Source: Candidatus Poribacteria bacterium (lineage in GTDB: Bacteria; Poribacteria; WGA-4E; WGA-3G). Taken from it: a stretch of DNA of 64,000 bases. Of this stretch, positions 15,459 through 61,890 are shown one piece after another. A program made the translations under genes and the position numbers. The stretch lies in NCBI GenBank assembly GCA_022828145.1, contig JAJEJA010000024.1, positions 62,001 to 126,000 of the forward strand. Direction: 5' to 3'. The notes beneath the pieces were generated by a model. The model made no database searches, was not told the origin of the DNA, and saw nothing but the letters and a program-made list of their open reading frames with translations. The number at the start of each line of letters is the position of its first letter. The first letter of the stretch is position 1.

Positions 15459-15540
15459 ATAGTCGGGAATCGACCAAAAATATGTTAACTGGCCTCCTAC
15501 AGAACTGACTATTGGTAGGAGCGATCTCCGAATCGCGACC
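15459..15540. repeat. GTAG-headed palindrome pair, GAGCGATCTCCGAATCGC type
   Basis: GTAGGAGCGATCTCCGAATC at 15515 is a GTAG head plus a GCGAT/ATCGC hairpin. An inverted, partly decayed partner (GTCGGGAATCGAC...CCTCCTAC) lies at 15461-15500. The same family occurs at 47824-47886 and 59395-59465. It lies in the 144-base gap between disA and the coiled-coil lipoprotein gene. Confidence 0.8.
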
Positions 15541-15564
15541 CACATATATAGTCTGGACTGTCCA

Positions 15565-16671
15565 CTAATCCCAATCGAAAATGGGTGATGTTAAAACTTG
15601 TGGTTGTGTTGCTCCAGTTTTCATCTCAATAAGAGACTCTTTGATTGCTTTCGCTCGTACTGTTCCAACGCCTTCTACTTTTTTAAGCGTATTAACATCT
15701 GAGGTGATGATCGCATCTAAGGAATGGAAACGGTCAATAATGTTCTCTACTACGTTAATTGGGATCCGTGAAATCTGACTCAAGATTCTATATCCACGGG
15801 GTTCTAAAGTCTCTTCAGGTCCAATTGCGTCATGCGAATATCCAAGTGCTTCATAGATGTTCTTCACATCTGATAATTCTGACACACTCAAACCGAATAA
15901 ATCTTCATACACTTCTGCAAGGTCTCTCATTTCATCATTAAAATAATCTCTTATAATGAGTAAAGACCTTTGAATTTCAGTTGCTAACTCAGTAGGAATT
16001 AACTGTAATGACAATGCTTCATTCCCTAATTCTATTCTATATAGATTTAGATCGTGTTCTGTTCTTCTGAGACGTTCACAGACTTGTATTGCTGTCAAGA
16101 CGTCTGGCATTCTGACTGTCCCACTCAATTCCACCCAGTTTAATGTTGCTAATACGTGTTGCATAGTTTTTGCATACTGGGTTAGCGATAACATCGCTTG
16201 ATTAGCACCAGATATTAATATAGGACGATCACGAAAGAGATACTGTTGATAGGGTGTATATAAGGTCAGTGTATTCCTACGTCTTGAAACAGCAATGACA
16301 ATCTCACCCGTTTCTTTAGCGAACTTTTCTGCTGCACGATGCCGTAAACCGGTTTCATTAGAGGTAATTGATGGATTTACTTTGAGTGTGACGTTTGCAC
16401 GCACAATCCGTTTCATATCAGATGAAAGGATGATAGCACCATCCATTTTAGCCAATTCGGCAAGACGCGAAGGTAGGTAAGGACAATCTATTTGAAAACC
16501 ATCCTCAGTAAGATTCAGCACATCAGGCGAATCACCTACAACAATCAATCCACCTGTTTTTGCCTGAAGTATGTATCCAATACCATCACGCAGCGCGGTA
16601 CCGGGTGACAATAACTTCAATGTTGCAATAAGTTCTCTCTCTATAAAATTCTCTGTCGGTATGCTGAGCAC
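15565..16671 (-). CDS. disA: DisA diadenylate cyclase / DNA integrity scanning protein
   Basis: Makes the second messenger c-di-AMP from two ATP. The 368 residues comprise an N-terminal DAC domain with the DGA motif (77-79) and RHR motif (110-112), a helical linker, and a C-terminal helix-hairpin-helix DNA-binding region (LKKVEGVGTVRAKAIKESL, about 327-345) that in known DisA binds branched DNA. The order and length match the family. The GTG start at 16671 has GGAGG eight bases upstream. No phosphodiesterase (GdpP/PgpH) or c-di-AMP receptor gene is recognisable nearby. Confidence 0.95.
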   Translation of the reverse strand: MLSIPTENFIERELIATLKLLSPGTALRDGIGYILQAKTGGLIVVGDSPDVLNLTEDGFQIDCPYLPSRLAELAKMDGAIILSSDMKRIVRANVTLKVNPSITSNETGLRHRAAEKFAKETGEIVIAVSRRRNTLTLYTPYQQYLFRDRPILISGANQAMLSLTQYAKTMQHVLATLNWVELSGTVRMPDVLTAIQVCERLRRTEHDLNLYRIELGNEALSLQLIPTELATEIQRSLLIIRDYFNDEMRDLAEVYEDLFGLSVSELSDVKNIYEALGYSHDAIGPEETLEPRGYRILSQISRIPINVVENIIDRFHSLDAIITSDVNTLKKVEGVGTVRAKAIKESLIEMKTGATQPQVLTSPIFDWD

Positions 16672-16779
16672 TTCCTACACCTCCAACTATTTATAAGGTA
16701 ACACATAAAAATATAATCTGTCAAGGCAATCTTATGTAGAGGTATACACTTTCTCATCAACAGTCAAACAACTTTATTC

Positions 16780-16808
16780 TTGACTTCCTACCCAAAAATA
16801 TGTATCAT
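16780..16808 (+). promoter_or_regulatory. Sigma-70-type promoter for the cyclophilin gene
   Basis: TTGACT (16780-16785), a 17-base spacer and TATCAT (16803-16808) match the -35/-10 consensus at 10 of 12 positions. Initiation near 16815 would give a leader of about 75 bases containing the GTAG-type palindrome at 16856. Confidence 0.6.
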
Positions 16809-16855
16809 GAATGATATGAGATTGTGTAGTGACGCTTCATTGTTTGTTATATTAC

Positions 16856-16878
16856 GGCACACGGAGTGTGCCTAATAC
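16856..16878. repeat. GTAG-type palindrome, GGCACACGGCGTGTGCC family
   Basis: GGCACACGGAGTGTGCC plus TAATAC: the same hairpin family as the spacers between the lectin-like genes at 49395, 50178 and 50225. The stem lies in the 5' leader of the cyclophilin mRNA, 12 bases before its start codon. The GTG inside it should not be taken as the gene start. Confidence 0.75.
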
Positions 16879-16889
16879 TATTAAAAGAT

Positions 16890-17366
16890 ATGAAAAAAGA
16901 TAAAGATACATTAGAAATTGTAACGCTTGAAACCGATAAAGGAAACATAATTATTGAACTGTACCCTGAATGTGCCCCATTAACCGTAGATAATTTTGTT
17001 AAGTTGATTCGAGATGGCTTTTATGACGGTTTAACCTTTCATCGTTTTGTAAAAGGTTTCGTCATACAAGGTGGCGACCCAGATGGAACAGGAACAGGTG
17101 GACCAGGTTGGACAATTCCGGGTGAATTCAAGAAGAAGAAACTCCGAGAATTAATGCCTCAACACGAAAAAGGTGTATTGGCAATGGCGCGTAAACCTTC
17201 ACCTGATTCCGCAGGTAGCCAATTCTATATCTGTCTCAGCGATGATCCTACTATCTATGAACATCTAAATGGAAACTATACAACATTCGGACGCGTCATT
17301 GAAGGTATGGACGTCGTTCAATCACTACGAGAACGGGATGTAATGACACAGGTGTCGGTTAAATAA
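16890..17366 (+). CDS. Cyclophilin-type peptidyl-prolyl cis-trans isomerase
   Basis: 158 residues, a single cyclophilin domain with no signal peptide, so cytoplasmic. Motifs: FHRFVKGFVIQGGD (catalytic Arg), AMARKPSPDSAGSQFYICLSD, and the C-terminal NYTTFGRVIEGMDVV. It speeds proline isomerisation during folding. The ATG at 16890 is chosen because the only upstream start (GTG 16866) is part of a dispersed palindrome. The lysine-aminomutase gene follows 57 bases downstream on the same strand. Confidence 0.95.
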   Translation: MKKDKDTLEIVTLETDKGNIIIELYPECAPLTVDNFVKLIRDGFYDGLTFHRFVKGFVIQGGDPDGTGTGGPGWTIPGEFKKKKLRELMPQHEKGVLAMARKPSPDSAGSQFYICLSDDPTIYEHLNGNYTTFGRVIEGMDVVQSLRERDVMTQVSVK

Positions 17367-17423
17367 ATCAAAGAACCGGTATAACAATCTACGCTTTTGT
17401 TGATTGTTGGAAGGATTTTATGA

Positions 17424-18479
17424 ATGGAAACATGGAAACAACTTGTACGTGATACAGTTAACACACCAGAAAAACTTGCAGCTAAGTTTGACGTTGATAT
17501 TGAAGAGATGCGACGCATACACAAGGAATTTCCAATTCGCATCAATCCTTACTATTTGAGCCTGATAGAAAAGCCAGGAGACCCTATCTGGAAACAGGTA
17601 GTGCCTGATACAAGAGAATTGATCAGCACTGGTGTTGATGACCCGCTGGATGAAGAACACGACAGTGAAGTACCGAATGTTACACATCGGTATCCTGATA
17701 GAGCACTCTTTTATGTCAATTATATGTGTCCTATCTATTGCCGGTTCTGTACGCGAAAACGCAAAGTCGGGGATCCACATTCAATATCTGAAAATAACAT
17801 TGAAATAGGACTTGATTACATCAGATCACACCCAGAGATTCGGGACGTCATCATCTCTGGCGGTGACCCCCTCATGTTGACAGATAAGAAGATTGACATG
17901 GTAGTTAGTGGGTTGCGCGATATTGACCATCTTGAGATAATTCGCATCGGCTCACGAGTACCAGTTACACTTCCCCAACGCATTACGCCAGAACTGTGTG
18001 CAATTCTCAAACAGTACCATCCTTTCTATATTAATACTCACTTCAACCATCCCCGTGAAATAACACCTGAAACTGAAAAAGCGTGTGGTATGCTCGCAGA
18101 TGCTGGAATACCGCTCGGTAACCAAGCCGTCCTGCTAAAAGGTGTAAATGATGAACCGGAGACAATGGTCGAATTGATGAAAGGACTCCTGAGAATTAGA
18201 GTTAAACCTTACTATATCTATCAGGCTGACCTTGTTTTTGGTACTGACCATTTCAGAACATCAGTTGAAACAGGTCTCAAAATCGTCGCTGCATTACGTG
18301 GACATATATCCGGACTCGGTGTACCGCATTATGTGATAGATGCCCCAGGCGGTGGTGGAAAAATCGCTATAATTCCAGACCCAATCGTTACTTTTGACGA
18401 TGACGAAATACAACTCAAAAACTATGAAGGCAACATATATAGTTATCCCAGCACACCATTCTTTGATGAAGATTGGTAA
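17424..18479 (+). CDS. KamA-family radical SAM lysine 2,3-aminomutase
   Basis: 351 residues. The radical-SAM cluster motif is C102-x3-C106-x2-C109 (MCPIYCRFCTRKRK), and the PLP-binding site is DAPGGGGK with Lys313. Asp306 in that motif and the Asp in YQADLVFG correspond to the two aspartates that hold the lysine side chain in clostridial lysine 2,3-aminomutase. This favours L-lysine to L-beta-lysine over the glutamate enzyme. The protein lacks the C-terminal extension of the clostridial enzyme and could instead resemble EpmB, but no EF-P or EpmA gene is visible. GGAAGGA lies eight bases before the ATG. Confidence 0.88.
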   Translation: METWKQLVRDTVNTPEKLAAKFDVDIEEMRRIHKEFPIRINPYYLSLIEKPGDPIWKQVVPDTRELISTGVDDPLDEEHDSEVPNVTHRYPDRALFYVNYMCPIYCRFCTRKRKVGDPHSISENNIEIGLDYIRSHPEIRDVIISGGDPLMLTDKKIDMVVSGLRDIDHLEIIRIGSRVPVTLPQRITPELCAILKQYHPFYINTHFNHPREITPETEKACGMLADAGIPLGNQAVLLKGVNDEPETMVELMKGLLRIRVKPYYIYQADLVFGTDHFRTSVETGLKIVAALRGHISGLGVPHYVIDAPGGGGKIAIIPDPIVTFDDDEIQLKNYEGNIYSYPSTPFFDEDW

Positions 18480-18490
18480 AACGAGAGTGG

Positions 18491-19273
18491 TTACGCCTCC
18501 TCTGATTCCTGCTTATTATCCCTGTTCATAAAAGGCGTCAGTAGGTCGATTGGAATTGGGAAAATCACGGTTGAGTTCTTCTCTGCACTGACTTCAACCA
18601 ATGCCTGAAGAAAACGGAGTTGTATAGATGTTGGTGTCTGACTTAGTATCTCTGCAGCATTCGTAAGAACCTCTGCAGATTCAAACTCCCCTTCAGCATG
18701 CACAACCTTTGCGCGACGTTCCCGTTCAGCTTCCGCCTGTTTCGCCATTGCTCGTTGCATCTCCGCAGGAAGGTCTACGTGCTTTATCTCCATAGAAAGT
18801 ACTTCAACACCCCACGGTTCGCACTGCCTTTTGATAATATCCTCTAAATCTGTATTGAGTTTATCCCGTTCAGATAGTAAGTCATCAAGTTCTGCGCGTC
18901 CAAGCACACTACGGAGTGTTGTCTGTGCAATCTGTGAGATAGCAAATCCGAATTCTTCTACTTCAATAATCGCTTTATCCGGTTCAGTTACGCGAAATGT
19001 CAGGACAGCATTGACGCTTACAGAAACGTTATCCTTTGTAATAACATCTTGTGGCGTGACATCGTTCACGACCACGCGAAGACTTACCCTCTGCATACGT
19101 TCAATCCAGAACGGAATTAGCATCACAAGCCCAGGACCTCTTGCCCCTTTAAAACGTCCTAACCTGAATACAACAGCGCGTTCATATTCCTTAAGTATCC
19201 TTATACTTGTAGCAAGCATTATCACTACTACGATTGCAATTATAAAATAATATAGTCCAATTGTTTCCGGCAT
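18491..19273 (-). CDS. Slipin-type SPFH/band-7 membrane protein
   Basis: 260 residues. One N-terminal hydrophobic segment (about 5-24) is followed by the band-7 domain typical of slipins ([63 protein letters not shown]) and a short helical tail with [25 protein letters not shown]. Slipins oligomerise in the inner membrane and often associate with NfeD-type partners or proteases; no nfeD is adjacent. AGGAAG lies eight bases upstream of the ATG. The gene converges on kamA with 11 bases between the stops. Confidence 0.93.
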
Positions 19274-19289
19274 CTAAAAAACTTCCTTT

Positions 19290-20309
19290 CTACGCTCCAA
19301 CTCCAGTTATCTCTCTAATCTTCTGAAAAAACGCCCGTTTACGTGGTGTATTGATCTGCCACTGCACAGGTACAGATTGATATCCGTGATGATAGTCATT
19401 CTCACCAGGATCAAAGTATCCCCACGACGCGTATTGACTTACAGCAGCCATACAGTTGTTGATAGGTTTATCAAAGTCAAAATGATCATCTTCATTGAAT
19501 AGAATCGGCATCGGTCGATATCCAGGAACATGTCGTGTCTGTTGTACCATTTCAAGAATCCGATTCGGGTCTTTGACACCGTTTCCATGCACTAAGATAA
19601 AATCTGATGCGCGAACTACGTTCTCATAAGGCACTCGTCCTCCGCCGTAGCTTGTACCTGCTAAATAGCTCCTACCGTTGTGTGTTGTTGATCTTACCCG
19701 TTCAATCAATTCGTGTACTCTTTCAGGTTGCAGGATTTCATGCTTATATCTTACATTACATTCATTATTAACCTCAACGATCACATTCGTCCATTCGTTA
19801 TCAAAAAGCCATTGTGTCGCGTTATCAACAGCAGTGATAACAGCGTTCTCATCTGAAAGTCTATGATCTTGACCAAAATAGAAATACCCCAGAATAACGA
19901 CCATACCGAGTTCATCAGCAAAATCGATGATTCGTTTGAGTCGTGATAGATAATCCGGGTTAAGACTACCGTCCGATTCTATTCCTGAATTATGCCATGG
20001 CTGTGCTTTTGAATATCCTTCCGGACTTCCGCCCTGCAGGTTGATAGTAAATGCTAATACACCATGTGCACGCCATGCTGGCATAGCAGAAAGGAATTCC
20101 CGCGTGTTTCTCTCAGGATCCCATTTACCAGTATCAGGGTATTCCCAACGGTGAACGGTTTCAGCATTCCTATCATCAAAGATACCTTGTACCATGCGAC
20201 TGTTCATCAACAGTCCTTCTATTTTGTTTCCCTGATAGTATCGACCCGGATATGTTATTTCTCCGTTAATATAAAATGCATCTTCAACAATAGTAACGTC
20301 AGTATTCAT
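19290..20309 (-). CDS. GH5-like TIM-barrel glycoside-hydrolase family protein
   Basis: 339 residues without signal peptide. It has a TIM-barrel pattern resembling GH5/cellulase-like proteins: an early FLSAMPAWRAHGVLAFTINLQGG strand, a candidate acid/base Glu in VIVEVNNEC at about residue 175, and a candidate nucleophile Glu in PILFNEDDHFD at about 275. The short insert YFYFGQDHRLSD follows the second barrel strand. The substrate cannot be told and catalysis is an inference from the two glutamates. AAAGGAG precedes the ATG by four bases. The slipin gene follows 16 bases downstream. Confidence 0.75.
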   Translation of the reverse strand: MNTDVTIVEDAFYINGEITYPGRYYQGNKIEGLLMNSRMVQGIFDDRNAETVHRWEYPDTGKWDPERNTREFLSAMPAWRAHGVLAFTINLQGGSPEGYSKAQPWHNSGIESDGSLNPDYLSRLKRIIDFADELGMVVILGYFYFGQDHRLSDENAVITAVDNATQWLFDNEWTNVIVEVNNECNVRYKHEILQPERVHELIERVRSTTHNGRSYLAGTSYGGGRVPYENVVRASDFILVHGNGVKDPNRILEMVQQTRHVPGYRPMPILFNEDDHFDFDKPINNCMAAVSQYASWGYFDPGENDYHHGYQSVPVQWQINTPRKRAFFQKIREITGVGA

Positions 20310-20352
20310 AGGACTCCTTTCTTATAGATGCTGGAATTCTGTTAATTATCGT

Positions 20353-21390
20353 TCAAATCCATTTTTTCATAGTGTGTTCAAAGAGTTGGAGCGTTACATG
20401 GTTTTTACTTTCATGTTCCAACCACTTCATAGCAAAATCGGCAAATTCCGGATTGATCTCTATACCCAAATATTCAACTCCCAATGTTTGTGCCGCGACA
20501 CATTCCGATCCTGAACCAGCAAACGGAACAAGTACCTTTCCATTAGTCCCGTTGATACGAGATAGTATGAGTCTTCTTGTCAATTCCATCGGTTTTTGAG
20601 TTGGATGCTTCAGTATATCATGTTCTCGGTGTTCAGATAGTTCAGCAGGAGGATAGATTTGTGAACCACATGTTCTACAGACGAACCATCTTTCAGAACG
20701 TCCAGCACCGCCTGCTAATGCGGGGATTTTGATAACATCTCTCGGCAAAGCACCATTTTTGTGTGCGTTATAGATTGTTTTTTTCCCTGGTGAACCGTAG
20801 CGTGAAGGTGTATCTTTGCGTTCTTTTCCTGCAGCATTCTTTAGGAAGTTCTGAGTGTAAGGTTCTCTGATCTGATCTACTTCCAAATTTGTGCGAGGCA
20901 TATTCGGTTTCCATAGACACAGTATCGTCTCGTGTGACCTTTGCCAAAACTTAAGTGATGGTACAGTTTTGTTGGTATAATGCCACACCAACCAACGTTG
21001 TTCATGAATAGGGAAACAGACAGATATTCTTGCGATGATTTCGGGGAATCCGTACAGGTAAAGTAAGCCGTCATCAGTGAGGAGGTGAAGACAGTCTTTA
21101 ATCCACGATTCCGACCATTGGACATAATCGTCTATAGGCATTACTTCTGTATCATTCCCGAAATCTTTACCGATATTGTAGGGAGGATCCGCAATAATCA
21201 CATCGTATTGCTTATCTGCCTTGATAAGTTCTGGTAATAACTTCGTTGTATCTGCTGCGATAATTGTGTTGATGAGTATGTCTTCCTTCATGTTCTGTTC
21301 AATGCGTTTTCCATCTCTAAGTGCGTCGGTGGTCATTACTCTATTCTCTAATAGACTTTCTTTAAGAAGATGTTGATCGACGATATTCAT
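20353..21390 (-). CDS. Beta-class DNA methyltransferase (N4-cytosine or N6-adenine), orphan
   Basis: 345 residues. Motif IV DPPY (68-71) precedes motif I FAGSGS (290-295), the beta-class order shared by N6-adenine and N4-cytosine enzymes. The target-recognition part between them contains CRTCGSQIYPP, a possible half zinc site. No restriction nuclease is adjacent, so this is probably a solitary modification enzyme. An internal ATG (MKEDIL, residue 35) is an alternative start. A good promoter lies at 21454-21482. Confidence 0.9.
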   Translation of the reverse strand: MNIVDQHLLKESLLENRVMTTDALRDGKRIEQNMKEDILINTIIAADTTKLLPELIKADKQYDVIIADPPYNIGKDFGNDTEVMPIDDYVQWSESWIKDCLHLLTDDGLLYLYGFPEIIARISVCFPIHEQRWLVWHYTNKTVPSLKFWQRSHETILCLWKPNMPRTNLEVDQIREPYTQNFLKNAAGKERKDTPSRYGSPGKKTIYNAHKNGALPRDVIKIPALAGGAGRSERWFVCRTCGSQIYPPAELSEHREHDILKHPTQKPMELTRRLILSRINGTNGKVLVPFAGSGSECVAAQTLGVEYLGIEINPEFADFAMKWLEHESKNHVTLQLFEHTMKKWI

Positions 21391-21453
21391 GATTTCAGAT
21401 ACCTTGAAGTTAACAACGTTCCTGAGTAACTGTAAGATACATTGGGTATAAAT

Positions 21454-21482
21454 AGTATATCAGAATAGTATAAAGAATTCAA
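21454..21482 (-). promoter_or_regulatory. Sigma-70-type promoter for the DNA methyltransferase gene
   Basis: On the minus strand TTGAAT (21482-21477), a 17-base spacer and TATACT (21459-21454). Transcription would begin near 21447, about 57 bases before the ATG at 21390. Confidence 0.55.
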
Positions 21483-21536
21483 TATTGAATAGAGATAATG
21501 GCTGGATTCCAAAGAAAAGAGAAAAGATAAGATACA

Positions 21537-23192: not shown

Positions 23193-23217
23193 AGGAATCC
23201 TCCATTAATTTACGGGT

Positions 23218-34167: not shown

Positions 34168-34347
34168 GCACAATCAAGGATGAATGTGCTACGGCAATAT
34201 CAAGTTTTTTGCAGGGTGGAGAAAGGTAATGAAGGATGAATGGGTTTGGAGAAAGAGGCACAATCTAACAGAATGTGCTACAAAGAGGCACAAAATGTAG
34301 CATGAATGGCATTGGAGAAAGAAGCACAATCTAACAGAATGTGCTAC
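34168..34347. repeat. Three GTAG-headed palindromes, CACATTCTGTTAGATTGTGC type
   Basis: GCACAATCTAACAGAATGTG followed by CTAC occurs at 34258-34281 and 34324-34347, with a diverged copy at 34168-34192 and a fragment at 34283-34302. Read on the minus strand each begins GTAG and folds as GCACA/TGTGC. Flanking GGAGAAAGA words are also repeated. Together with the methylase relic and a CCGTG-rich repeat at 34407-34452, this fills the roughly 700-base gap before the PhyH gene; no intact gene is seen there. Confidence 0.75.
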
Positions 34348-38914: not shown

Positions 38915-39110
38915 TAGATTTATCTCTATTAGGTTAACGTGAGTTTGATAAATCAGAACAAATAACTACGTAGGTTGGGTTGAGGTACGAAACCCAACAT
39001 CTTTACTTGCGCGAATATGATAAATTTATCCCTATTAGGTTAACTTGAGTTTGATAAATCAGAACAAATAACTACGTAGGTTGGGTTGAGGTACGAAACC
39101 CAACATCTTT
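38899..39110. repeat. 106-base tandem duplication carrying the purD 3' end
   Basis: Unit 1 (38899-39004) and unit 2 (39005-39110) both begin ACTTGCGCGAATATGATA and end CCCAACATCTTT, with four or so base differences. Each holds the last purD codons, the flanking TAGGTTA or its variant, the left end of the miniature element and its first GTAG hairpin. The duplication must be younger than the element insertion. Confidence 0.88.
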
Positions 39111-39194
39111 ACGCATTATAGGCACCTAAATGTTGGGTTTCGTGCCTCAACCCAACCTACGGATACATTCTTGATTTAATTATCAAACTCACGT
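38937..39194. mobile_element. Miniature element copy 1 (GTTGGGTTGAGG core)
   Basis: Left end ACGTGAGTTTGATAAATCA at 38937, right inverted end TTATCAAACTCACGT at 39180-39194. Flanking TAGGTTA occurs on both sides (38930-38936 and 39195-39201), a probable target duplication. The core holds GTAGGTTGGGTTGAGG hairpins at 38970 and 39076 (the second by duplication) and an inverted partner at 39130-39160. There is no open frame, so any movement must be in trans. The right end is 12 bases before the next gene's ATG. Confidence 0.8.
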
Positions 39195-40989: not shown

Positions 40990-41203
40990 ACGTGAGTTTG
41001 ATAATAGGTATATGGACTTCATTTTTCCCAAAATATCACTTGCATAGACCCGGTATGTTCTGTTTCCTAACCAATTCAGAATACCAAACGCGTATTCTGA
41101 CGGATCCTACGCGAAAACCTTTATGAACGCATTGGCACAAAACTGGTTCGGTTAGGAAACCGAACCTACCGGCCTGGGAAAATCTGATTTATCAAACTCA
41201 CGT
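40990..41203. mobile_element. Miniature element copy 2 (GTTCGGTTTCCTAACC core)
   Basis: Ends ACGTGAGTTTGATAA (40990) and TTATCAAACTCACGT (41189-41203). The core has GGTTCGGTTAGGAAACCGAA plus CCTAC at 41145-41169 (GTAG-headed on the minus strand) and a weaker inverted relative near 41052-41077. Flanks TATTATTA and TATATAAC are not clear target duplications. The right end is 16 bases before the SDR start codon. Confidence 0.75.
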
Positions 41204-43450: not shown

Positions 43451-43582
43451 AAGAAATGTGAGTTTGATAAATCAAATTTTCGTATTCAAGAGGCGTGCAT
43501 TGTAGCACAAACTTTCAGTTTGTGGCACATCTTCGCAAACTGGAAAGTTTGCGCTACATTTATCAAAATCACGTTAAAAGAA
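43448..43582. repeat. 8-base target duplication TAAAAGAA around miniature element copy 3
   Basis: TAAAAGAA at 43448-43455 and again at 43575-43582 flanks the element exactly. The left copy contains the stop codon of the polyprenyl synthase gene and the right copy contributes to the AAGAAGGAG ribosome site of the aldolase gene. Removing the element and one copy places the two genes about 15 bases apart. Confidence 0.8.
43456..43574. mobile_element. Miniature element copy 3 (GTAGCACAAACTTTCAG core)
   Basis: 119 bases with ends ATGTGAGTTTGATAAATCA and TATCAAAATCACGT. The core is a pair of inward-facing hairpins, GTAGCACAAACTTTCAGTTT at 43502 and its relative ending GTTTGCGCTAC at 43557. It has the clearest target duplication of the four copies. 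Confidence 0.82.
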
Positions 43583-44694: not shown

Positions 44695-44792
44695 GTAGGT
44701 CGGGTAGAGCGTAGCGAAACCCGACATGAGTTGATTGGGACTATCCTGTCGCCATTAAAATATTAACTGGCACTTCGCTCTACCCGACCTAC
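44695..44792. repeat. GTAG-headed palindrome pair, GTCGGGTAGAG type
   Basis: GTAGGTCGGGTAGAGCGTAG with closing ACCCGACA at 44695-44726, and an inverted partner CTTCGCTCTACCCGACCTAC at 44773-44792. The spacer contains GCCATTAAAATATTAACTGG. A second element of this family at 61761-61890 has that spacer in the opposite orientation. Between convergent genes the stem may also end transcription. Confidence 0.82.
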
Positions 44793-47823: not shown

Positions 47824-47886
47824 GTAGGAGCGATCTCCGAATCGCGACGAAACCAATAATAGTCGGGAATCGGAGTTCCCTCCTAC
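47824..47886. repeat. GTAG-headed palindrome pair, GAGCGATCTCCGAATCGC type
   Basis: A complete element: GTAGGAGCGATCTCCGAATC at 47824 and an inverted partner GTCGGGAATCGGAGTTCCCT... ending CCTAC at 47886. Both ends read GTAGGAG/CTCCTAC. It ends 12 bases before the ATG of the methyltransferase gene, which lacks a ribosome site. Confidence 0.85.
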
Positions 47887-49350: not shown

Positions 49351-49417
49351 ATAGTAATAGACACACAGCGTGAGTCTACTACTATTATATGGACGGCACA
49401 CGACGTGTGCCTACTAC
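49351..49417. repeat. Two GTAG-type palindromes in spacer 1
   Basis: ATAGTAATAGACACACAGCG with closing AGTCTACTACTATT (49351-49386, decayed) and GGCACACGACGTGTGCCTAC (49395-49414). The same pair recurs in the next spacer, showing that spacer and gene were duplicated together. Confidence 0.8.
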
Positions 49418-50177: not shown

Positions 50178-50247
50178 GTAGTAGGCACACGGCGTGTGCC
50201 TACTACTATTGAATATAATTCGATGGCACACGGCGTGTGCCTACTAC
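50178..50247. repeat. Two GTAG-type palindromes in spacer 2
   Basis: GTAGTAGGCACACGGCGTGT with closing GCCTACTAC (50178-50206), a near-perfect 29-base palindrome, and GGCACACGGCGTGTGCCTAC (50225-50244). Both are less decayed than those in spacer 1, consistent with spacer 2 being the younger copy. Confidence 0.85.
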
Positions 50248-50998: not shown

Positions 50999-51047
50999 CA
51001 TCTATCATCACAAGGTATCTTACGATTGTGGTGATAGATGTTTTTTT
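50999..51047 (+). terminator. Rho-independent terminator after the lectin-like genes
   Basis: The stem CATCTATCATCACAA (50999-51013) pairs with TTGTGGTGATAGATG (51026-51040) with one mismatch, followed by TTTTTTT. It ends at the stop codon of the convergent epimerase gene. Confidence 0.9.
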
Positions 51048-51993: not shown

Positions 51994-52027
51994 GCTGAAA
52001 ACTCCTTTTGGAATAACTGAGTAATCG

Positions 52028-52366: not shown

Positions 52367-52440
52367 ATATGTTGAAACTCCAAAAAAAAGAAATTATATG
52401 TGATTACGAATTCGTGCGAAATAGATTCAATGATGGTATG

Positions 52441-54042: not shown

Positions 54043-54090
54043 TTAGTATCCTTTCGCAGATTTCACTTAAGTTAGCACTTCTATTCTTTG

Positions 54091-55086: not shown

Positions 55087-55132
55087 TTTTCCGTAATTCT
55101 CCCCAATTATTTAGCGACGTTATACGTAAAAA

Positions 55133-55462
55133 TTAGTATCGCATACTACCGATACTACCGACCATTGCAAACATTGCTATGACAAGTAGCAAACCCAATC
55201 CACAACTTATTGCAAAACCTATAGCAGCATAGCTCAACTGGATGTTACGTGCCTTTGCTTGGTAGGCCTCGGTGTAATACATTGTATACTCATGGGATTT
55301 TTCAACCATCCTTGAGGCAGGGGGTGTCGGTTGATAGATATAGGCAATGAGGAGTCCTATGAGGGTTATAAAGAACCCCACAACTACCCATAGTATTTTA
55401 CTAACATCAGTTTCGGCATCTTGTTCTGCAACCATGCGTGCTTGGTTTACATCATTGTTCAT
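55133..55462 (-). CDS. Two-TM protein, tandem paralogue C
   Basis: 109 residues. It shares the family pattern D-A-E-T-D-V-S-K-I-L-W, a first helix, LIAYIYQPTPPASRMVEKS, YYTEAYQAKARNIQLSYAAIG and a second helix. The loop between the helices is the most conserved part. The family is unknown to me. AGGAG lies eight bases before the ATG. It is the last of three tandem copies. Confidence 0.78.
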   Translation of the reverse strand: MNNDVNQARMVAEQDAETDVSKILWVVVGFFITLIGLLIAYIYQPTPPASRMVEKSHEYTMYYTEAYQAKARNIQLSYAAIGFAISCGLGLLLVIAMFAMVGSIGSMRY

Positions 55463-55523
55463 CTTTTAAACTCCTTTTTGTGTAGCGATAATAGAATCAG
55501 AATAGTCAATTACAATTTGTTTT

Positions 55524-55547
55524 GTGCGATTTGGAAATCGTACCTAC
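55524..55547. repeat. GTAG-headed palindrome, TACGATTTCCAAATCG type
   Basis: On the minus strand GTAGGTACGATTTCCAAATC plus GCAC, a GTAG head with a CGATTT/AAATCG hairpin. The bases after it (ACCGGCTTGACGAAATCAGA) resemble the right part of miniature element copy 2, so it may be a decayed relative. Confidence 0.6.
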
Positions 55548-55602
55548 CGGCTTGACGAAATCAGAATTACCTGATTATTTAATCAATCTTCATATCGTCA
55601 AC

Positions 55603-55956
55603 TTAGAAAAAATCAGAAAAGAAATTAGAAAAGAACATAAAACTCCCTGCCGTATATGTAAACATTGTAATCCAACCTATTATTAAAAACCCAAATGGCA
55701 CTATACATCCAATGATTGAATAAGTGAGTTGGATACTTCTTGATTTGTTTTTATATGCTTCCGTATAGAACAGTCTAAATTCCTCTGATTTATCAAAGAA
55801 ACGCGTTGCAGGTGGTGGTGGTTGATAAATATACGCAATTAGTATTCCAATCCAGTTTAATGCCACACCTGCAACAAGCCAGATTATCTTGTTAACATCA
55901 TTTTGGGCATCAGTTTCAGCTGAAATATACGTTTGATGTTGATTGGCATTCATCAT
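55603..55956 (-). CDS. Two-TM protein, tandem paralogue B
   Basis: 117 residues, same layout as its neighbours: DAQNDVNKIIWLVAGVALNW, IAYIYQPPPPATRFFDKSEE, FYTEAYKNKSRSIQLTYSIIG, and a second helix with a Phe-rich tail (SFMFFSNFFSDFF) that the others lack. GGAGG precedes a double ATG (55956/55953), and the second ATG has the better spacing. Confidence 0.78.
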   Translation of the reverse strand: MMNANQHQTYISAETDAQNDVNKIIWLVAGVALNWIGILIAYIYQPPPPATRFFDKSEEFRLFYTEAYKNKSRSIQLTYSIIGCIVPFGFLIIGWITMFTYTAGSFMFFSNFFSDFF

Positions 55957-56139
55957 CCAGCCTCCATAGATTTAGTACCTTTACTTCTGTATATTACCTG
56001 ATTTTGCATTCATCTTCAACCTTTTTTCAATCTGTATAAATATGCGCTGTTTTTCCTCGTTTGGATTTACAGTAAAACACAATTCAGCATAAACTTAGCA
56101 TCTGCTAAGCGTAAACGTCCATTTAATCTTTGTGAATAA

Positions 56140-56496
56140 TCAACCTACGTATTCTCTTAAATCTGAAAACTCTGAATACATTATGAACATGAATGCAATG
56201 TAAATTAGTATCAAAGTAAACATCAAAGCCAGAACGACAAGAAATCCGATGACTGCAAATTTGACTTGGATATTCCGTGATGTTGATTTATATTTTTCGG
56301 TATAGAATACAATATACTCCTGTGTTTTCTCAAAAGTGCGCGTTGCGGGTGGTGCCTGTTGATAGATGTAAGCAATGAGAATCCCAACGACGTTTAAGGC
56401 TAACCCAACGAAAAACCAGAGGAGCTTGTTTGTATCTGATTGAGCGTCTCGTTCACCGTCTATTTGCATCTGTTGTCGATTTACACTATTCTCCAT
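56140..56496 (-). CDS. Two-TM protein, tandem paralogue A
   Basis: 118 residues. Pattern: DAQSDTNKLLWFFVGLALNV, IAYIYQQAPPATRTFEKTQE, FYTEKYKSTSRNIQVKFAVIG, then the second helix. Its ribosome site AGGAGG lies in the last codons of the Gfo/Idh/MocA gene, whose stop is 3 bases before this ATG, so it is translationally tied to that enzyme. The 183-base gap to the next paralogue holds no feature I can name. Confidence 0.8.
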   Translation of the reverse strand: MENSVNRQQMQIDGERDAQSDTNKLLWFFVGLALNVVGILIAYIYQQAPPATRTFEKTQEYIVFYTEKYKSTSRNIQVKFAVIGFLVVLALMFTLILIYIAFMFIMYSEFSDLREYVG

Positions 56497-56499
56497 GAC

Positions 56500-57552
56500 T
56501 TAACCTCCTATTTCAATAGCACGTCTTACTATAGTTGCTTTTCTTGCAGCATCAATAATTGCCAGGTTATGATAGGCTTTCTCTGGACTAATTGGCAGCG
56601 ATTCACCTTTACTGAGGGCATTAAATGTGGCTTTAAAATAGCCTTGATGTCCACTTGCATCTTTGAGTCCCTCCTCATCAAGGGTTGGCAGTTCAACCTG
56701 TTTCCATCCGTTAGACCGTGTATATTGAGATAGCGCGTCTTTAACATTATAGCGATGTCTTATCCGCAGCGAACCTTCATTTGCATGGACTTCACACCAG
56801 CCAAAGTCTGTTGCCGGAACACACCATGCCCCCGAGATTGTCGTGATTGCACCGTTTTCATGTTCACAGAGAATCGCCGCAAGGTCGTCAACATCTATAT
56901 CAAGACGCATCGTCTTAACACGTGCTTCAACATAACGCACTGGAGACTGAATCAGTGTGCAGACAGAATAGATTTCATGATAACTCGTATCACTAATACA
57001 ACCACCGCCTCTGGATTTACTTGCACGCCATGCAAGAGCAGGCGTGGGGTGATTTGCAGAGAAGTCAGCAGGCTTGAGACCCATCCCGGTACTTCGTCCA
57101 TAATAGGTTTCGCCGATTTCTGGCAACATGCCAATTGCTGTTTGCATACCCGCCGTATATAGGTAGTTATGCACAACTGTATATGGCACACTATTGCTAT
57201 TAATCGCTTCCAAAATCCTATCTGCTTCTTCAAGAGAGGTTGCCATCGGTTTCTCAGATATTATTGCGACATTTGCTGATGCTGCTTCAATAACCTGTTC
57301 TGCGTGTAATGCATGTGGTGTGGCGATTACGACAGCATCAATGTCAGTCTTTGTAAGCATTTCTCGATATTCAGTGTATCGGTTGTGTGTCGGCACGTTG
57401 AAGTCTTGACCAACCGTCTCAAGATTCTCAGGAACAACATCTGCTACCGCTGTTACCTTTACCATCTTTGAGAGCGAATGGTATGCACGCGCATGCGTTT
57501 TTTGAACTATACCCCCACAACCTATGAGACCTAAACGAATTGGTGAAGTCAT
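56500..57552 (-). CDS. Gfo/Idh/MocA-family oxidoreductase 1
   Basis: 350 residues. The N-terminal Rossmann domain has GLIGCGGIVQKTHARAY, DAVVIATPHALHAEQV and ISEKPMA (the conserved EKP lysine). The C-terminal alpha/beta domain contains GGCISDTSYHEIYS with the conserved Asp-x3-His. It uses NAD(P) to oxidise or reduce a sugar, inositol or similar polyol. It is first in a probable transcript with the two-TM genes. Confidence 0.92.
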   Translation of the reverse strand: MTSPIRLGLIGCGGIVQKTHARAYHSLSKMVKVTAVADVVPENLETVGQDFNVPTHNRYTEYREMLTKTDIDAVVIATPHALHAEQVIEAASANVAIISEKPMATSLEEADRILEAINSNSVPYTVVHNYLYTAGMQTAIGMLPEIGETYYGRSTGMGLKPADFSANHPTPALAWRASKSRGGGCISDTSYHEIYSVCTLIQSPVRYVEARVKTMRLDIDVDDLAAILCEHENGAITTISGAWCVPATDFGWCEVHANEGSLRIRHRYNVKDALSQYTRSNGWKQVELPTLDEEGLKDASGHQGYFKATFNALSKGESLPISPEKAYHNLAIIDAARKATIVRRAIEIGG

Positions 57553-57621
57553 AATGTTTCTCCTTACAAGTAGTCTACCACATTTTAGTTTTATATAAAA
57601 GGTTTTTATGAAAACTTATCA

Positions 57622-57772
57622 ACGCGAGTTTGATAAATCAAAACAAATAACTACGTAGGTTGGGTTGAGGCACGAAACCCAACATCTTGACCCATTATAG
57701 AGCAATACGTGTCGGGTTTCGTACCTCAACTCGACCTACAACGCATATTGCATTTAATTATCAAACTCACGT
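57622..57772. mobile_element. Miniature element copy 4 (GTTGGGTTGAGG core)
   Basis: Ends ACGCGAGTTTGATAAATCA (57622-57640) and TTATCAAACTCACGT (57758-57772). The core pairs GTAGGTTGGGTTGAGGCACG at 57655 with an inverted, partly mutated partner at 57709-57739. It has the same core as copy 1. It lies between the divergent Gfo/Idh/MocA and S10 genes; no clear target duplication. Confidence 0.8.
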
Positions 57773-57807
57773 TAACAGGTTTTTTGCAACATCGATCCAA
57801 TAAGATA

Positions 57808-57816
57808 TGCTATAAT
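57808..57816 (+). promoter_or_regulatory. Extended -10 promoter for the S10 peptidase gene
   Basis: TGCTATAAT: a perfect TATAAT preceded by the TGn extension, with no convincing -35 box. Initiation near 57823 gives a short leader of about 28 bases before the ATG at 57851. Confidence 0.5.
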
Positions 57817-57850
57817 GGCACTATATATTTTCAATTGAAAGGCACAAATT

Positions 57851-59347
57851 ATGAGTCAAGACAAAAAGAATGATACTGAAGAGAACAAGTCTGATGAAAA
57901 CAGTAATTCAGAACCTGAAGATAACCTTTCTGTTACACAGCATAGTGTAACAATAAATGGTAAGGAGTTGAATTACACCGCAACGACTGGCACATTGGTT
58001 TTAAAGGAAGAAACCGATAAAGAGGGTGAAAAACCTAAAGCGTCAATATTCTTTGTCGCCTATACTTTAGACGACGTCGAAGACACGTCAAAACGTCCGG
58101 TGACTTTCTCATTTAACGGTGGACCTGGTTCTTCATCCGTGTGGTTGCATTTAGGTGTGTTGGGACCGAGACGCGTAAAACCTGATGAACACGGAAATCC
58201 ACCACAACCCCCATATCAACTAACGAATAACGAATTTTCTATTCTGGATAAGACGGATCTCGTCTTTATTGATCCTGTGAGTACAGGTTTCAGTAGAGCT
58301 GTACCGGGTGAAGAAGCGAAACAGTTCCACGGATTTCAGAAAGATATTGAGTCAGTCGGTAATTTTATTTTACTCTACTTGGGACGTTACCAGCGTTGGC
58401 GTTCACCCAAATTCCTAATTGGCGAAAGCTACGGAACAACGCGAGCATGCGGACTGTCTGGATACCTGCAAGACAAACGTGGTATGTATCTCAACGGTAT
58501 CATGCTCGTTTCGGTCGTGCTAAACTTCCAAACCATTCGCTTTGCTGCTGGGAATGATCTACCCTATATCCTCTTTTTGCCAACTTATACAGCAACAGCC
58601 TATTGGCATAACAGGTTAGATCAATTGGAAACTGATACTGAAGACAGTTTTGAGAAGATATTAGAGGACGTAAGAGAATTTGCATTAGGTGACTATACGC
58701 TTGCTTTGATGCAAGGTTCTAACCTGTCAGACCGTAGAAGACAAGCGATAGTTAAGAAATTAGCAACGTATACGGGTCTGTCAACTGATTACATTGAGAA
58801 GACAGATTTAAGAATCAAGATCAATCGGTTCTGTAAGGAGCTCCTCAGGGATGAAGGAGAAACGGTCGGACGGTTTGATAGCCGCTTTAAAGGTATAGAC
58901 CGGGATTCTGCCGGAGAAAACTATGAATATGATCCAAGTTCTGCGGTTATCCAAGGTGCATATACTGCAACATTAAACGATTATGTCCGGGGTGACCTAC
59001 AGTTTGAGAGTGATCTCCCTTATGAAATACTGAGTGGACGCGTACATCCTTGGAATTATGGGGGACATCAGAACGAATATGTCAACGTTGCCGATACATT
59101 GCGGAAAGCAATGACAACGAATCCTGCCTTGAAAGTCTATGTTGCTAACGGTTACTTTGATTTAGCGACACCGTTTCTGGCTTCAGAATATACCTTTACG
59201 CACCTCGGTCTTGATAAATCGTTGCAGGACAACATTACTATGGCATATTACGGTGCGGGACACATGATGTATATTGATATGGACGAGTTAGAGAAAATGA
59301 AAGCGGATATGGACGCGTATCTTGATGCTACGCTTTCTATATTATAA
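57851..59347 (+). CDS. Serine carboxypeptidase-like protein (peptidase S10)
   Basis: 498 residues with no signal peptide; the first 30 are acidic and disordered. The S10 family is marked by SFNGGPGSSSVWLHLG (oxyanion region), the nucleophile Ser193 in GESYG, Asp437 in NGYFDLATP and His471 in GAGHMMY, a complete catalytic triad. S10 enzymes are mainly eukaryotic but a bacterial branch of this kind is known. It would remove C-terminal residues from peptides; the lack of a signal suggests cytoplasmic action or non-classical export. Confidence 0.92.
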   Translation: MSQDKKNDTEENKSDENSNSEPEDNLSVTQHSVTINGKELNYTATTGTLVLKEETDKEGEKPKASIFFVAYTLDDVEDTSKRPVTFSFNGGPGSSSVWLHLGVLGPRRVKPDEHGNPPQPPYQLTNNEFSILDKTDLVFIDPVSTGFSRAVPGEEAKQFHGFQKDIESVGNFILLYLGRYQRWRSPKFLIGESYGTTRACGLSGYLQDKRGMYLNGIMLVSVVLNFQTIRFAAGNDLPYILFLPTYTATAYWHNRLDQLETDTEDSFEKILEDVREFALGDYTLALMQGSNLSDRRRQAIVKKLATYTGLSTDYIEKTDLRIKINRFCKELLRDEGETVGRFDSRFKGIDRDSAGENYEYDPSSAVIQGAYTATLNDYVRGDLQFESDLPYEILSGRVHPWNYGGHQNEYVNVADTLRKAMTTNPALKVYVANGYFDLATPFLASEYTFTHLGLDKSLQDNITMAYYGAGHMMYIDMDELEKMKADMDAYLDATLSIL

Positions 59348-59394
59348 TGGCTGATCTATAATGCACTGATCTATTGCTTTGTCAACATTTTATT

Positions 59395-59465
59395 GTAGGT
59401 CGCGATTCGGAGATCGCTCCTACCGTTGGGTTGCTTATGGTAGGAGGGAACTCCGATTCCCGACC
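59395..59465. repeat. GTAG-headed palindrome pair, GAGCGATCTCCGAATCGC type
   Basis: GTAGGTCGCGATTCGGAGAT ... CCTAC at 59395-59423 (GTAG at both ends) and GTAGGAGGGAACTCCGATTC at 59440-59459 followed by CCGACC. Same family as 47824-47886 in the opposite order. It lies in the 161-base gap before the second Gfo/Idh/MocA gene. Confidence 0.82.
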
Positions 59466-59508
59466 CTATCAAGTCTATCAATTAGCACTTGTATACTGAA
59501 GGATCTAC

Positions 59509-60555
59509 ATGAGTTATCAAAGAGACTTTGAAAAGAGACTCAACGTAGCAGTCGTCGGAATCGGATCACACGCCTATCGGAATGTTCTGCCGACTATGAC
59601 GTTTCTTCCGGTGAAGCTAAATGCCTTCTGTGATGTCAATCTTGAACGCGCCAAGTTGACTGCCAGACAGTATGGTGTTAAAAGATGTTATAAAGAAATG
59701 GGAGACATGTTACGGTCTGAGGAATTAGATGCGGTATTTCTATGCGTACCGCCTCGCCTCCACCCAGAACTGACGTGTGAAGCGTTAGATGCTGGCATGC
59801 ATGTCTGGTTAGAAAAACCGCCAGGCATGTTCGTAAGTGAAATTGAGACGATGATCCGTCACCGAAATGACCGTATTGTAGTTGTAGGATTCAAGAAGGC
59901 ATTTATGCCTGCTACACAGAAGATCATAGAAATCTTCAACACAGATGTATACGGTCCTTTGCGGACTCTGTTAGGTGTCTATCCGATGATTATTCCAAGT
60001 GATGGGGAACGGATCCTGCGTGAACGTGAACATACCAACTGGCTTCAAAATGGTGTTCATCCTTTATCGTTGTTGTTGGCAGTAGGTGGAAAAGTTTCTG
60101 CTGTTACTGTTCACCGTGCAAAACATGGTGGTGGTGTGTGTATCATTGAATTCACAAACGGTGCAATGGCAAACTTCCATTTAGCAGATGGGGCAAGACA
60201 TGGACAACCATCTGAACTCTATCAGTTTTTCGGAGATGGATGCCATGCTGAGATACGGAACGGTACGCAGGTACTGCTGCAACGCGGCATGCAATTTGAC
60301 TATAGAGACAGCACAAGTTTTATGACAGAAGGTTTCGATAGCGGTGCAATAGTGTGGGAACCACAGAATTCACTCGGTACACTTGAAAACAAGGGACTTT
60401 TCATACAAGGTTTCTACCAAGAGATGCGTTATTTCTGTGACTGTATCTTGAAAGGAGAACCCGCTGATATGGGATCGCTTGAGTTTGCATTGGACGTGAT
60501 GAAGGTGTATGAAGCGGGATTGCTATCCAACGCGGATAGGGTTGAAATCAGATAA
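59509..60555 (+). CDS. Gfo/Idh/MocA-family oxidoreductase 2
   Basis: 348 residues. Rossmann motif [11 protein letters not shown], then [15 protein letters not shown] and [10 protein letters not shown] (EKP Lys). The C-terminal domain includes [18 protein letters not shown], where the usual D-x3-H is N-x2-H, so the catalytic Asp may be altered. AAGGA precedes the ATG. The aldo/keto reductase gene follows 44 bases downstream; together they could interconvert a sugar derivative. Confidence 0.9.
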
Positions 60556-60599
60556 AACGAAACCACTGAATACCTAAATCCTTGTGCTATGGAGGAATC

Positions 60600-61619
60600 G
60601 TGGAATATAGAAGACTTGGAAACTGCGGATTGAAAGTATCCGAAATCTGTTTGGGAACGATGACATTCGGTCATGGTACTGATGAAGATGAATCTAAACA
60701 GATGGTACATCTGGCTTGGGATACAGGGGTCAATTTCTTTGATACTGCTAACTCATATTCGGAAGGAGAATCAGAAAAACTTCTCGGAAAAGCACTTAAA
60801 GGCAGACGACAGGATGCTGTTGTTGCAACCAAGTTTTTCAATCCAATGGGAACAGGGATAAACGATTCTGGCATGTCTCGTGTACATATCATGCAAGCGA
60901 TTGACGATAGTCTCAAACGTCTACAGATGGATTATGTGGACATTTACTACATACATCACGTTGATACACAAACTCCTTTAGAAGAGATGTTGCGTGCGTT
61001 AGATGACCTTGTACGTGCCGGGAAGGTGCGTTATATTGCATGCAGCAACTATCAAGCCTGGAGATTGTCTGAAGCATTGTACCTAAGTGAATCGCTCAAC
61101 TTGGAGAAATTTGTATGCTATCAACCACAATACAGTCTCGTTGTCCGCGACATTGAGCAAGAGTTGGTTCCGCTTTGTGAATATAAAGGTTTGGGGATAG
61201 TCGTGTGGAGTCCATTAGCTGGAGGATTCCTTTCTGGCAAATACAAACCAGGAGAACGGACCCAACAAGGCTCACGTTCCGAAGAGGGTTGGGCATTTCC
61301 ATACCGTTATTTTGCTGAAAATGCAGATGAAACCTTGCATAAGCTTCTTGAAGTAGCGGACAAATTACGACGAAGTCCGGCTCAAGTCGATCTCAGATGG
61401 GTACTTGAACAACGCGCGATTACCTCTGTGATTGTCGGTGCCCGAAATACGCAACATTTACTGGATAACCTTGGTGCAAACGAGTGGAAGTTAGAAGGTG
61501 ACGCATTAGCAAGCTTAAATGAAATTTCATTTCTACCTGACCGATATCCAGAAAACATGGAAAAAAATATGCACGAACGACGAGACAGTGCAGTTAGAAT
61601 GCCACTACGGTTTTCTTGA
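60600..61619 (+). CDS. Aldo/keto reductase
   Basis: 339 residues from GTG 60600 (GGAGG four to five bases upstream; an earlier TTG would include that site). The catalytic tetrad is visible: Asp in FFDTANSYSEGESEKLLG, Tyr in the same block, Lys in VVATKFF, His in YYIHHVD. The C-terminal NADP-binding part is SVIVGARNTQHLLDNLGA. It resembles the KcnAB/YghZ-like group that acts on small aldehydes or ketones. Confidence 0.93.
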   Translation: MEYRRLGNCGLKVSEICLGTMTFGHGTDEDESKQMVHLAWDTGVNFFDTANSYSEGESEKLLGKALKGRRQDAVVATKFFNPMGTGINDSGMSRVHIMQAIDDSLKRLQMDYVDIYYIHHVDTQTPLEEMLRALDDLVRAGKVRYIACSNYQAWRLSEALYLSESLNLEKFVCYQPQYSLVVRDIEQELVPLCEYKGLGIVVWSPLAGGFLSGKYKPGERTQQGSRSEEGWAFPYRYFAENADETLHKLLEVADKLRRSPAQVDLRWVLEQRAITSVIVGARNTQHLLDNLGANEWKLEGDALASLNEISFLPDRYPENMEKNMHERRDSAVRMPLRFS

Positions 61620-61760
61620 CAGGATAATATACATTACTTCAATTCAACACACTTACCGAATGCGTGGAAAAACCGAACTTTTCTCAAAAATATCAGACTA
61701 AAAAATTAACTGGAATTAATTGAGCCGGTAAGGTAATATTGCTTTGTCAATTCCTATTTT

Positions 61761-61890
61761 GTAGGTCGGGTAGAGCGAAGCGAAACCCGACAATTGCCAA
61801 AAGCGCATTTGGCGTTGATTTGGACATGATAGACATAATCATCACGTGTCGCCAGTTAATATTTTAATGGCGTTCCTTTACCCGACTTAC
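61761..61890. repeat. GTAG-headed palindrome pair, GTCGGGTAGAG type, decayed
   Basis: GTAGGTCGGGTAGAGCGAAG with closing ACCCGACA at 61761-61792 and a mutated partner TTTACCCGACTTAC ending at 61890. The spacer has GCCAGTTAATATTTTAATGG, the reverse complement of the spacer core in the element at 44695. It lies within the 343-base gap between the aldo/keto reductase and SDR genes; the rest of that gap shows nothing recognisable. Confidence 0.78.

Follow-up and report, generated by a model that had tools for sequence, protein, structure and literature searches.

Families of repetitive extragenic palindromic sequences (REPs) with a GTAG head, 24 in number, REP types that coexist, and REP dimers within palindromes of Anabaena variabilis have been described, together with the coevolution of REPs and REP-associated tyrosine transposases (RAYTs), two modes of recognition, and REP types specific to RAYT subclasses, as far as the accessible text of five papers, taken jointly, goes (PMC3733652, PMC8266576, PMC3686654, PMC6006769, PMC2817692). 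In the available parts of two of them, up to four RAYTs per genome were given for pseudomonads and stenotrophomonads (PMC3686654), and the way in which REPs spread was called poorly understood (PMC8266576). Here we analysed a 64,000-nucleotide stretch of a Candidatus Poribacteria genome (contig JAJEJA010000024.1, positions 62,001 to 126,000), hereafter the window, in which a sequence-only reading had listed 15 intergenic hairpins headed by GTAG. That reading had sorted them into at least eight unrelated families and had taken one or few hairpin types per genome to be usual; however, several REP types per genome have already been published, according to the accessible parts of PMC3733652 and PMC3686654. 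Our analysis makes it highly probable that the hairpins are REPs of five architectures, each of which is, or once was, the substrate of its own RAYT clade, with a miniature inverted-repeat transposable element (MITE) as a second route of spread.

The host assembly has 5.06 Mb in 123 contigs and is 94.3% complete. The comparison set comprised 39 genomes, 23 from the window's family and 18 from its genus, and the sample within the host genome consisted of 403,268 bases, namely the window and 20 further stretches, with 197 intergenic segments of 48,725 bases including margins.

GTAG heads of intergenic hairpins exceed chance

In the intergenic DNA of the window, 17 of 67 GTAGs ran into a hairpin (score ≥7.5), which placed GTAG first among the 256 tetramers. 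It also ranked first in the 403-kb sample, where 71 of 362 intergenic GTAGs led into a hairpin (score ≥8). The enrichment over shuffled intergenic sequence that had been proposed was confirmed, since 100 dinucleotide shuffles gave a mean of 0.47 and a maximum of 4 such hairpins from, on average, 230 GTAGs. The runner-up in the sample was TGTA (54/519), and its hairpins are probably for the most part GTAG sites displaced by one base. The hairpin score underrates one of the classes described below, B1, because of its GA/GA foot, and a lower limit was applied to the B1 shape. A lower score limit gave 137 GTAG hairpins in the intergenic DNA of the sample, mostly in repeated families with few singletons. 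The hairpins thus combine a GTAG head, a small hairpin and many intergenic copies, as REPs do.

GTAG adjoined a hairpin at all 15 sites of the earlier list, and the strand and head position had to be corrected at three: the sites at 34258 and 34324, given as plus-strand heads, are minus-strand hairpins with heads at 34281 and 34347, and the proper reading of site 59395 is on the minus strand with its head at 59423. A pattern search of the window gave 24 REP matches, nine of them beyond that list, with heads at 34192, 39160, 43557, 47886, 49382, 49417, 50206, 50247 and 57739, all on the minus strand; head 50206 is the opposite strand of site 50178.

The hairpins fall into five architectures

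The eight families collapsed into five architectures, A, B1, B2, D and E. Class A consists of GTAG, a GTYGGGTW stem, GA, a variable inner part, GA and WACCCRAC. The GTTGGGTT and GTCGGGT families are both of this class: they differ in that C-G replaces T-A, and both were found beside one and the same RAYT gene. GA was found on both sides in 18 of 21 unique class A sequences, although the search did not require it. Class B1 is built of GTAGGA, a variable stem, a TCC loop and GA. Its two stem forms, GAGCGAT and GGGAACTCC, share GTAGGA, the TCC loop and the 3' GA, and are mostly the two arms of a single inverted pair; a GGGAA partner lay within 150 bp of 6 of 9 GAGCGAT copies, and the 3' GA was present in 32 of 45 unique B1 sequences when it was not required. 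In both classes GA/GA may form tandem G-A mismatch pairs. Class B2 has a perfect GTNCGRT stem. Class D has either a perfect CACAAACT stem or a CACATTC stem with one mismatch, and the two types flank RAYTs of the same clade. Class E (CACACGGCG) is a TAGGCA palindrome, in which GTAG itself can pair inside a longer palindrome.

The stem letters of class B1 covaried. As compared with column shuffles, which take no account of shared descent, Watson-Crick pairs among the 45 unique sequences were in excess at positions 2-15 (36; mean 15.3, maximum 23), 4-13 (39; 20.4, 30), 5-12 (33; 14.0, 23) and 6-11 (32; 12.8, 22). Pairs 1-16 (31 vs 28.8) and 3-14 (32 vs 30.2) were not above the shuffles because these columns hardly vary. 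The inner part of class A was less clear: among 11 sequences, pair 1 was formed in 10 (6.2 in shuffles) and pair 3 in 2.

An inverted partner within 150 bp, as in REP doublets forming hairpins (REPINs), was present for 29 of 41 class A, 11 of 16 D1, 14 of 18 B1 and 3 of 10 E hairpins, and for none of 13 B2 or 35 D2 hairpins. The D2 hairpins come in series, with three in the window (34169-34347) and eleven sites around a RAYT-like gene on contig C27 (L023, 1094-2790). Were the GTAG hairpins ordinary terminators of transcription, or hairpins of the host of some other kind in which GTAG is a side effect, their position between genes would be accounted for. Such an origin is exceedingly unlikely, as the families are repeated and have a fixed 5' tetramer, classes A, B1 and D1 form inverted pairs, and the same families adjoin RAYT genes; the terminator reading was set aside on the head, the repeat families and the inverted pairs, without a terminator scan.

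Pattern matches in the whole host genome numbered 252 for A, 204 for B1, 125 for B2, 276 for D and 147 for E, 1004 in sum, with both strands added, so that a palindromic site of B2, D or E may have been counted on each of them, and with a class D pattern that leaves out the CACATTCATCC form. Reversed patterns gave zero matches in every one of the 39 genomes.

RAYT genes of the host genome

The genome was searched with the Y1_Tnp profile, which gave two matches, and with the RAYT profile NF047646 (curated cut-off 80 bits), which gave three. Only one protein, RAYT-A (contig C83, 16123-16569), exceeded the cut-off, with 203 bits. It aligned with the solved E. coli TnpArep structure 4ER8 at E 1.7e-40 over residues 9-174 of 187, and its open frame contains the HUH motif HLH at 73 and the tyrosine motif YIHYNP at 144, which we take, by homology, to hold the catalytic residues. 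Its nearest relatives among named genomes were all from Candidatus Poribacteria (7/7, 66-73% identity). Five class A (GTYGGGT) hairpins in both orientations surround the RAYT-A gene, with two to one side of it and three to the other. All five hairpins within 700 bp are class A, compared with 252 of 1004 genome-wide; the probability would be about 0.001 if they were independent, which neighbouring REPs are not. The proposed link of the GTAG hairpins to RAYTs is supported by this arrangement. A lack of RAYTs in the genomes that carry these families, which the sequence-only reading had named as refuting it, was not observed: 32 of the 39 genomes matched NF047646, and 22 of the 39 did so above the cut-off.

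The second protein (C27, 9746-10120) is called RAYT-like, as it scored 60.4 bits, below the cut-off; its flanking hairpins, in 18 readings, are exclusively class D (CACATTC). The Y1 match on contig C3 was rejected as a RAYT: it is an IS200/IS605 fragment at the contig end, with 82.9 bits to the IS200 model vs 31.4 to the RAYT model. Thus class A has a RAYT and class D a RAYT-like gene in the host genome. The assembly yielded no RAYT of the B1/B2 clade, a profile made from 16 B-clade RAYTs returning the same three places and no other, and none for class E, which was sought only via the general profile NF047646; two E-flanked proteins of relatives scored 54.6 and 68.2 bits with that profile. The B1, B2 and E hairpins may be leftovers of lost enzymes, products of enzymes in the unassembled part, or the result of lateral spread.

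Two observations concern relatives of these genes. A Microcoleaceae cyanobacterium (L070) has a RAYT 64% identical to RAYT-A, with GTTGGGTT hairpins like those of class A on its flanks, which suggests lateral transfer of a RAYT together with its hairpin between phyla. The RAYT region of a genome from the window's genus (L007, G003) is identical to the Candidatus Poribacteria contig L065 in 3388 of 3388 60-mers.

Hairpin class follows RAYT clade

We analysed 80 RAYT-like loci from 136 NF047646 matches, leaving out about 50 weaker ones; two of the 80 belong to the host genome. A GTAG hairpin lay within 700 bp at 58 loci and was of a named class at 51. On a quick protein tree, with Shimodaira-Hasegawa-like approximate likelihood-ratio (SH-aLRT) support only, the named classes required 12 changes over these 51 loci, compared with a mean of 31.6 and a minimum of 26 in 200 label shuffles; this test left out 29 loci, 22 without a hairpin and 7 labelled 'other'. 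With all nine labels, 28 changes were required vs 51.5 after shuffling. One starred clade of 27 took in 13 of 14 B1 and 11 of 13 B2 loci. Within it, one starred subgroup of 10 had B2 or no hairpin only, and another of 10 had nine B1 and one B2. Classes A and D sit mainly elsewhere on the tree, as do C and F, two classes without an example in the window. A further RAYT-like clade in relatives (L133, L135, L136, L146) is accompanied by GTAG-GGGCGAGG-type hairpins, a class absent from the window matches.

Class counts were higher in genomes with a RAYT of the class, with one-sided p of 0.008 for A, 0.012 for B1, 0.010 for B2, 0.016 for D and 0.051 for E among the 39 genomes, and of 0.0099 for both A and B1 in the window's family alone (23 genomes). 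None of the five classes occurred in 5 of the 39 genomes, of which G024, G027 and G037 have no NF047646 match, while G029 and G038 have a single match each, of 72.1 and 22.2 bits.

The sequence-only reading had left the choice between several RAYT specificities and one relaxed enzyme. Several specificities are favoured because hairpin class goes with RAYT clade. That a single relaxed RAYT, reading mainly the GTAG head, produced all families is very unlikely, since across the relatives the class of hairpin next to a RAYT gene goes with the clade of that RAYT, and the five neighbours of RAYT-A are all class A. This holds even though the genome has one RAYT above the cut-off with five coexisting classes, stems vary within a class, and E. 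coli TnpAREP is reported, in the accessible part of that paper, to be somewhat flexible (PMC8266576). Within a class the enzyme seems to tolerate different stem letters, judging by the compensatory changes and by locus L014, which is flanked by both B1 stem forms and argues that a single RAYT can serve both.

With several specificities, each RAYT clade would recognise the GTAG head together with marks of its class: the internal GA/GA mismatch in A, the GA/GA foot and TCC loop in B1, and, for B2 and D, a stem with perfect or almost perfect pairing. Stem letters could then drift provided that pairing stays. The RAYTs probably cut and spread the hairpins. The link between class and clade is firm for A, B1 and B2, and weaker for D and E.

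A number of findings speak against a separate RAYT clade for each class. No GTAG hairpin lay within 700 bp of 22 of the 80 RAYT-like loci, and single B1 or B2 labels occurred beyond the B clade (L142, L147, L148). In 84 of 500 shuffles the D label alone was grouped as tightly as on the real tree; this is due in part to two remote loci that the rule likewise calls D. Class E comprised three loci, which sit in two places, and at one of these a B2 hairpin is closer. The class rules were drawn up after the hairpins had been seen, so that the tree test is one of clustering and no blind prediction. The count test used genomes that are not independent and RAYT classes assigned by hand from the tree, and in the family alone it gave p of 0.09 for B2 and 0.21 for both D and E. 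Genomes without a classed cognate RAYT held up to 163 A, 245 B1, 179 B2, 244 D and 147 E hairpins. Moreover, seven genomes had no NF047646 match, and four of these carry 120-409 REPs, namely G002 (267 REPs, 94% complete), G004 (409, 81%), G011 (120, 73%) and G021 (131, 86%); RAYT loss, assembly gaps or lateral spread must be invoked for them.

A MITE family carries REPs of three classes

A motif first spotted beside several REPs is the terminal inverted repeat (TIR) ACGTGAGTTTGATAA. It had 278 matches in the host genome with up to 2 mismatches, and its reversed control had zero. The complete copies read measured 65-258 bp. Target duplications of 5-9 bp were found in 40 of 56 elements (55-275 bp, TIRs with up to 2 mismatches, both flanks available, many chosen by exact TIR); 35 of the 40 begin with TA and all 40 end with A. 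The control, in which the left flank of one copy was set against the right flank of another, gave a mean of 0.48 and a maximum of 3. DDE transposases leave target duplications of 5-9 bp. These elements are short, with TIRs and target duplications, and are hence MITEs. They contain a class A pair (the majority of those read), a class D pair, a class B2 REP, or nothing, shares that are no genome-wide estimates since most copies were picked by exact TIR.

In a sample not chosen by TIR, 26 of 127 REPs lay within 150 bp of a MITE TIR, vs about 4 expected by coverage: 14 of 39 A, 9 of 16 D1, 2 of 10 B2 and 1 of 9 E. The anatomy of the elements shows that the MITE is a second route of spread, which multiplies A, D and B2 REPs as passengers, so RAYT action is not the sole route. 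These numbers and the 278 TIR matches could also be read as spread mainly by MITEs of the DDE kind, with GTAG a mere relic. We regard this as very improbable, because 101 of the 127 sampled REPs were not at this MITE, the one TIR family sought, including all 18 B1 and all 35 D2 hairpins, and because REPs are also present in families of the order that have no match to this TIR. Spread by class-specific RAYTs, assisted by the MITE, remains our preferred explanation.

With up to 1 mismatch the TIR occurred in 20 of the 39 genomes: in 18 of 18 of the genus, in 2 of 5 in the rest of the family, and in none beyond it. Among 19 TIR places in six relatives, some had B2 and one was a longer unit with B1 and A-like hairpins; others had different palindromes, and a second TIR was missing at several of the places. 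At L208, L209 and L219 (G014, G007), this TIR belongs to elements of 337-345 bp that carry other palindromes (GCTCCGTAGGAGC, GCACTCCGCTGGAGTGC or similar). No autonomous element sharing the TIR was present among the elements read, PF13612 being the only transposase family searched. An IS982-type transposase was rejected as the partner, as the sole PF13612 match has neither an intact frame nor a matching TIR (Table 1). Upstream of RAYT-A, a MITE end with an exact TIR (C83, 16756-16774, L125) adjoins the class A REPs, but a convincing partner TIR was not evident on the far side.

The REP pair of 34 occupied class A MITEs measured 85 nt in 28, 99 in 5 and 124 in 1. The 99-nt pairs are those of L172, L175 and the 166-bp elements in L181, L188 and L192; the extra bases of L172 and L175 include GCCAGTTAATATT, and a similar stretch lies to the right of the window REP at 44695. 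A pattern search of the host genome gave 46 right arms; 43 adjoin the REP end ACCTAC or ACCTAT, two lack this neighbour, and one has diverged too far. One of the arms without a REP, on C87, was not counted as a second empty MITE, for no right TIR was found in the 801 bases examined.

The empty MITE (C59, 24776-24840) is complete, with exact TIRs and the target duplication TATGGTA. When it is aligned with the occupied copy L186, the arms agree except for a 2-nt gap, and exactly the 85-nt REP pair is missing. Its right-arm variant also occurs in 4 of 34 occupied copies, a hint that it lost the REP pair rather than preserving the ancestral state. Given the 3-nt TAC repeat at the junction, a plain deletion may account for the missing pair. 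That REPs of three RAYT classes entered one MITE family which multiplies them, and that the pair enters or leaves exactly at its GTAG ends, is conceivable, although we lean somewhat against it; if true, nature would here have recorded the gain or excision of REP pairs, with two transposition systems feeding each other.

Features of the window

Table 1. REPs and MITEs of the window, with one transposase gene from elsewhere in the host genome.
Feature	Position	Strand	Basis
REP class B1 (GAGCGAT stem)	15515..15538	+	pattern match
REP class D2 (CACATTCATCC)	34169..34192	-	pattern match
REP class D2 (CACATTCTG)	34259..34281	-	pattern match
REP class D2 (CACATTCTG)	34325..34347	-	pattern match
MITE, left half partly duplicated, 7-bp target duplication TAGGTTA, three class A REPs	38937..39194	.	
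REP class A (GTTGGGTT) within MITE	38970..38998	+	pattern match
REP class A within MITE	39076..39104	+	pattern match
REP class A, inverted partner, within MITE	39132..39160	-	pattern match
MITE, exact TIRs, one class B2 REP; flanks have only TA in common	40990..41203	.	
REP class B2 (GTTCGGTT) within MITE	41146..41169	-	pattern match
MITE, one mismatch per TIR, 8-bp target duplication TAAAAGAA, class D REP pair	43456..43574	.	
REP class D1 (CACAAACT) within MITE	43502..43524	+	pattern match
REP class D1 (CGCAAACT), inverted partner	43534..43557	-	pattern match
REP class A (GTCGGGT)	44695..44725	+	pattern match
REP class B1, GAGCGAT arm of inverted pair	47824..47847	+	pattern match
REP class B1, GGGAACTCC arm, paired with 47824..47847	47863..47886	-	pattern match
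REP class E, degenerate	49360..49382	-	pattern match
REP class E	49395..49417	-	pattern match
REP class E, palindromic, GTAG on either strand	50178..50206	.	pattern match
REP class E	50225..50247	-	pattern match
REP class B2 (GTACGATTT)	55524..55547	-	pattern match
MITE, one mismatch in left TIR, exact right TIR, target duplication not seen, class A REP pair	57622..57772	.	
REP class A within MITE	57655..57683	+	pattern match
REP class A, inverted partner	57711..57739	-	pattern match
REP class B1, GAGCGAT arm	59400..59423	-	pattern match
REP class B1, GGGAACTCC arm	59440..59463	+	pattern match
REP class A (GTCGGGT)	61761..61791	+	pattern match
PF13612-family transposase gene, two internal stops, without MITE TIR	C37:66746-67114 (L200)		

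Comparison with known systems

No report of RAYTs, REPs or MITEs in Poribacteria was found in the literature searched, most subscription papers being outside its reach. In substance the finding is right: REPs with more than one RAYT specificity, an established sort of system, occur here in a new host. REPs are already known, and the unusual part is the REP-MITE composite, which, together with its single empty copy, is the part worth following. Literature searches on REPs combined with MITEs led to papers cited here and to one on an Acinetobacter MITE. The MITE allows occupied and empty copies to be compared base by base, and RAYT clades and hairpin classes can be tabulated within the genus as a basis for tests of specificity. 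Where REPs ride in MITEs, their copy number is no clean measure of RAYT activity.

As far as the accessible text of the papers on GTAG REP/REPtron systems goes (PMC3733652, PMC2817692, PMC8266576), those systems resemble ours in the GTAG head, the small hairpin, the inverted pairs, the RAYT gene flanked by its own REPs, and the presence of imperfect and perfect palindrome types; Pseudomonas and Xanthomonas REPs have GA between head and stem (PMC2817692, same limit), as class B1 does here. Unlike the published REPtrons, the present system is hosted by Candidatus Poribacteria, has five classes for which one RAYT and one RAYT-like gene were found, and has part of its copies inside a MITE. Fluorescent pseudomonads and stenotrophomonads likewise have class-specific RAYTs, REP classes without their RAYT and switches of stem inside a lineage; each of those bacterial groups has RAYTs of monophyletic origin, whereas several distant REP-flanked clades occur among the relatives studied here (PMC3686654, in its accessible part). 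The closest parallel to the composite is GTAG-15 of A. variabilis, whose REP pairs lie regularly inside a second inverted-repeat element and for which the part of PMC3733652 available mentions that no empty palindromes were found, whereas one complete empty copy exists here. In contrast to GTAG-15, a single TIR family here holds three REP classes and is flanked by target duplications.

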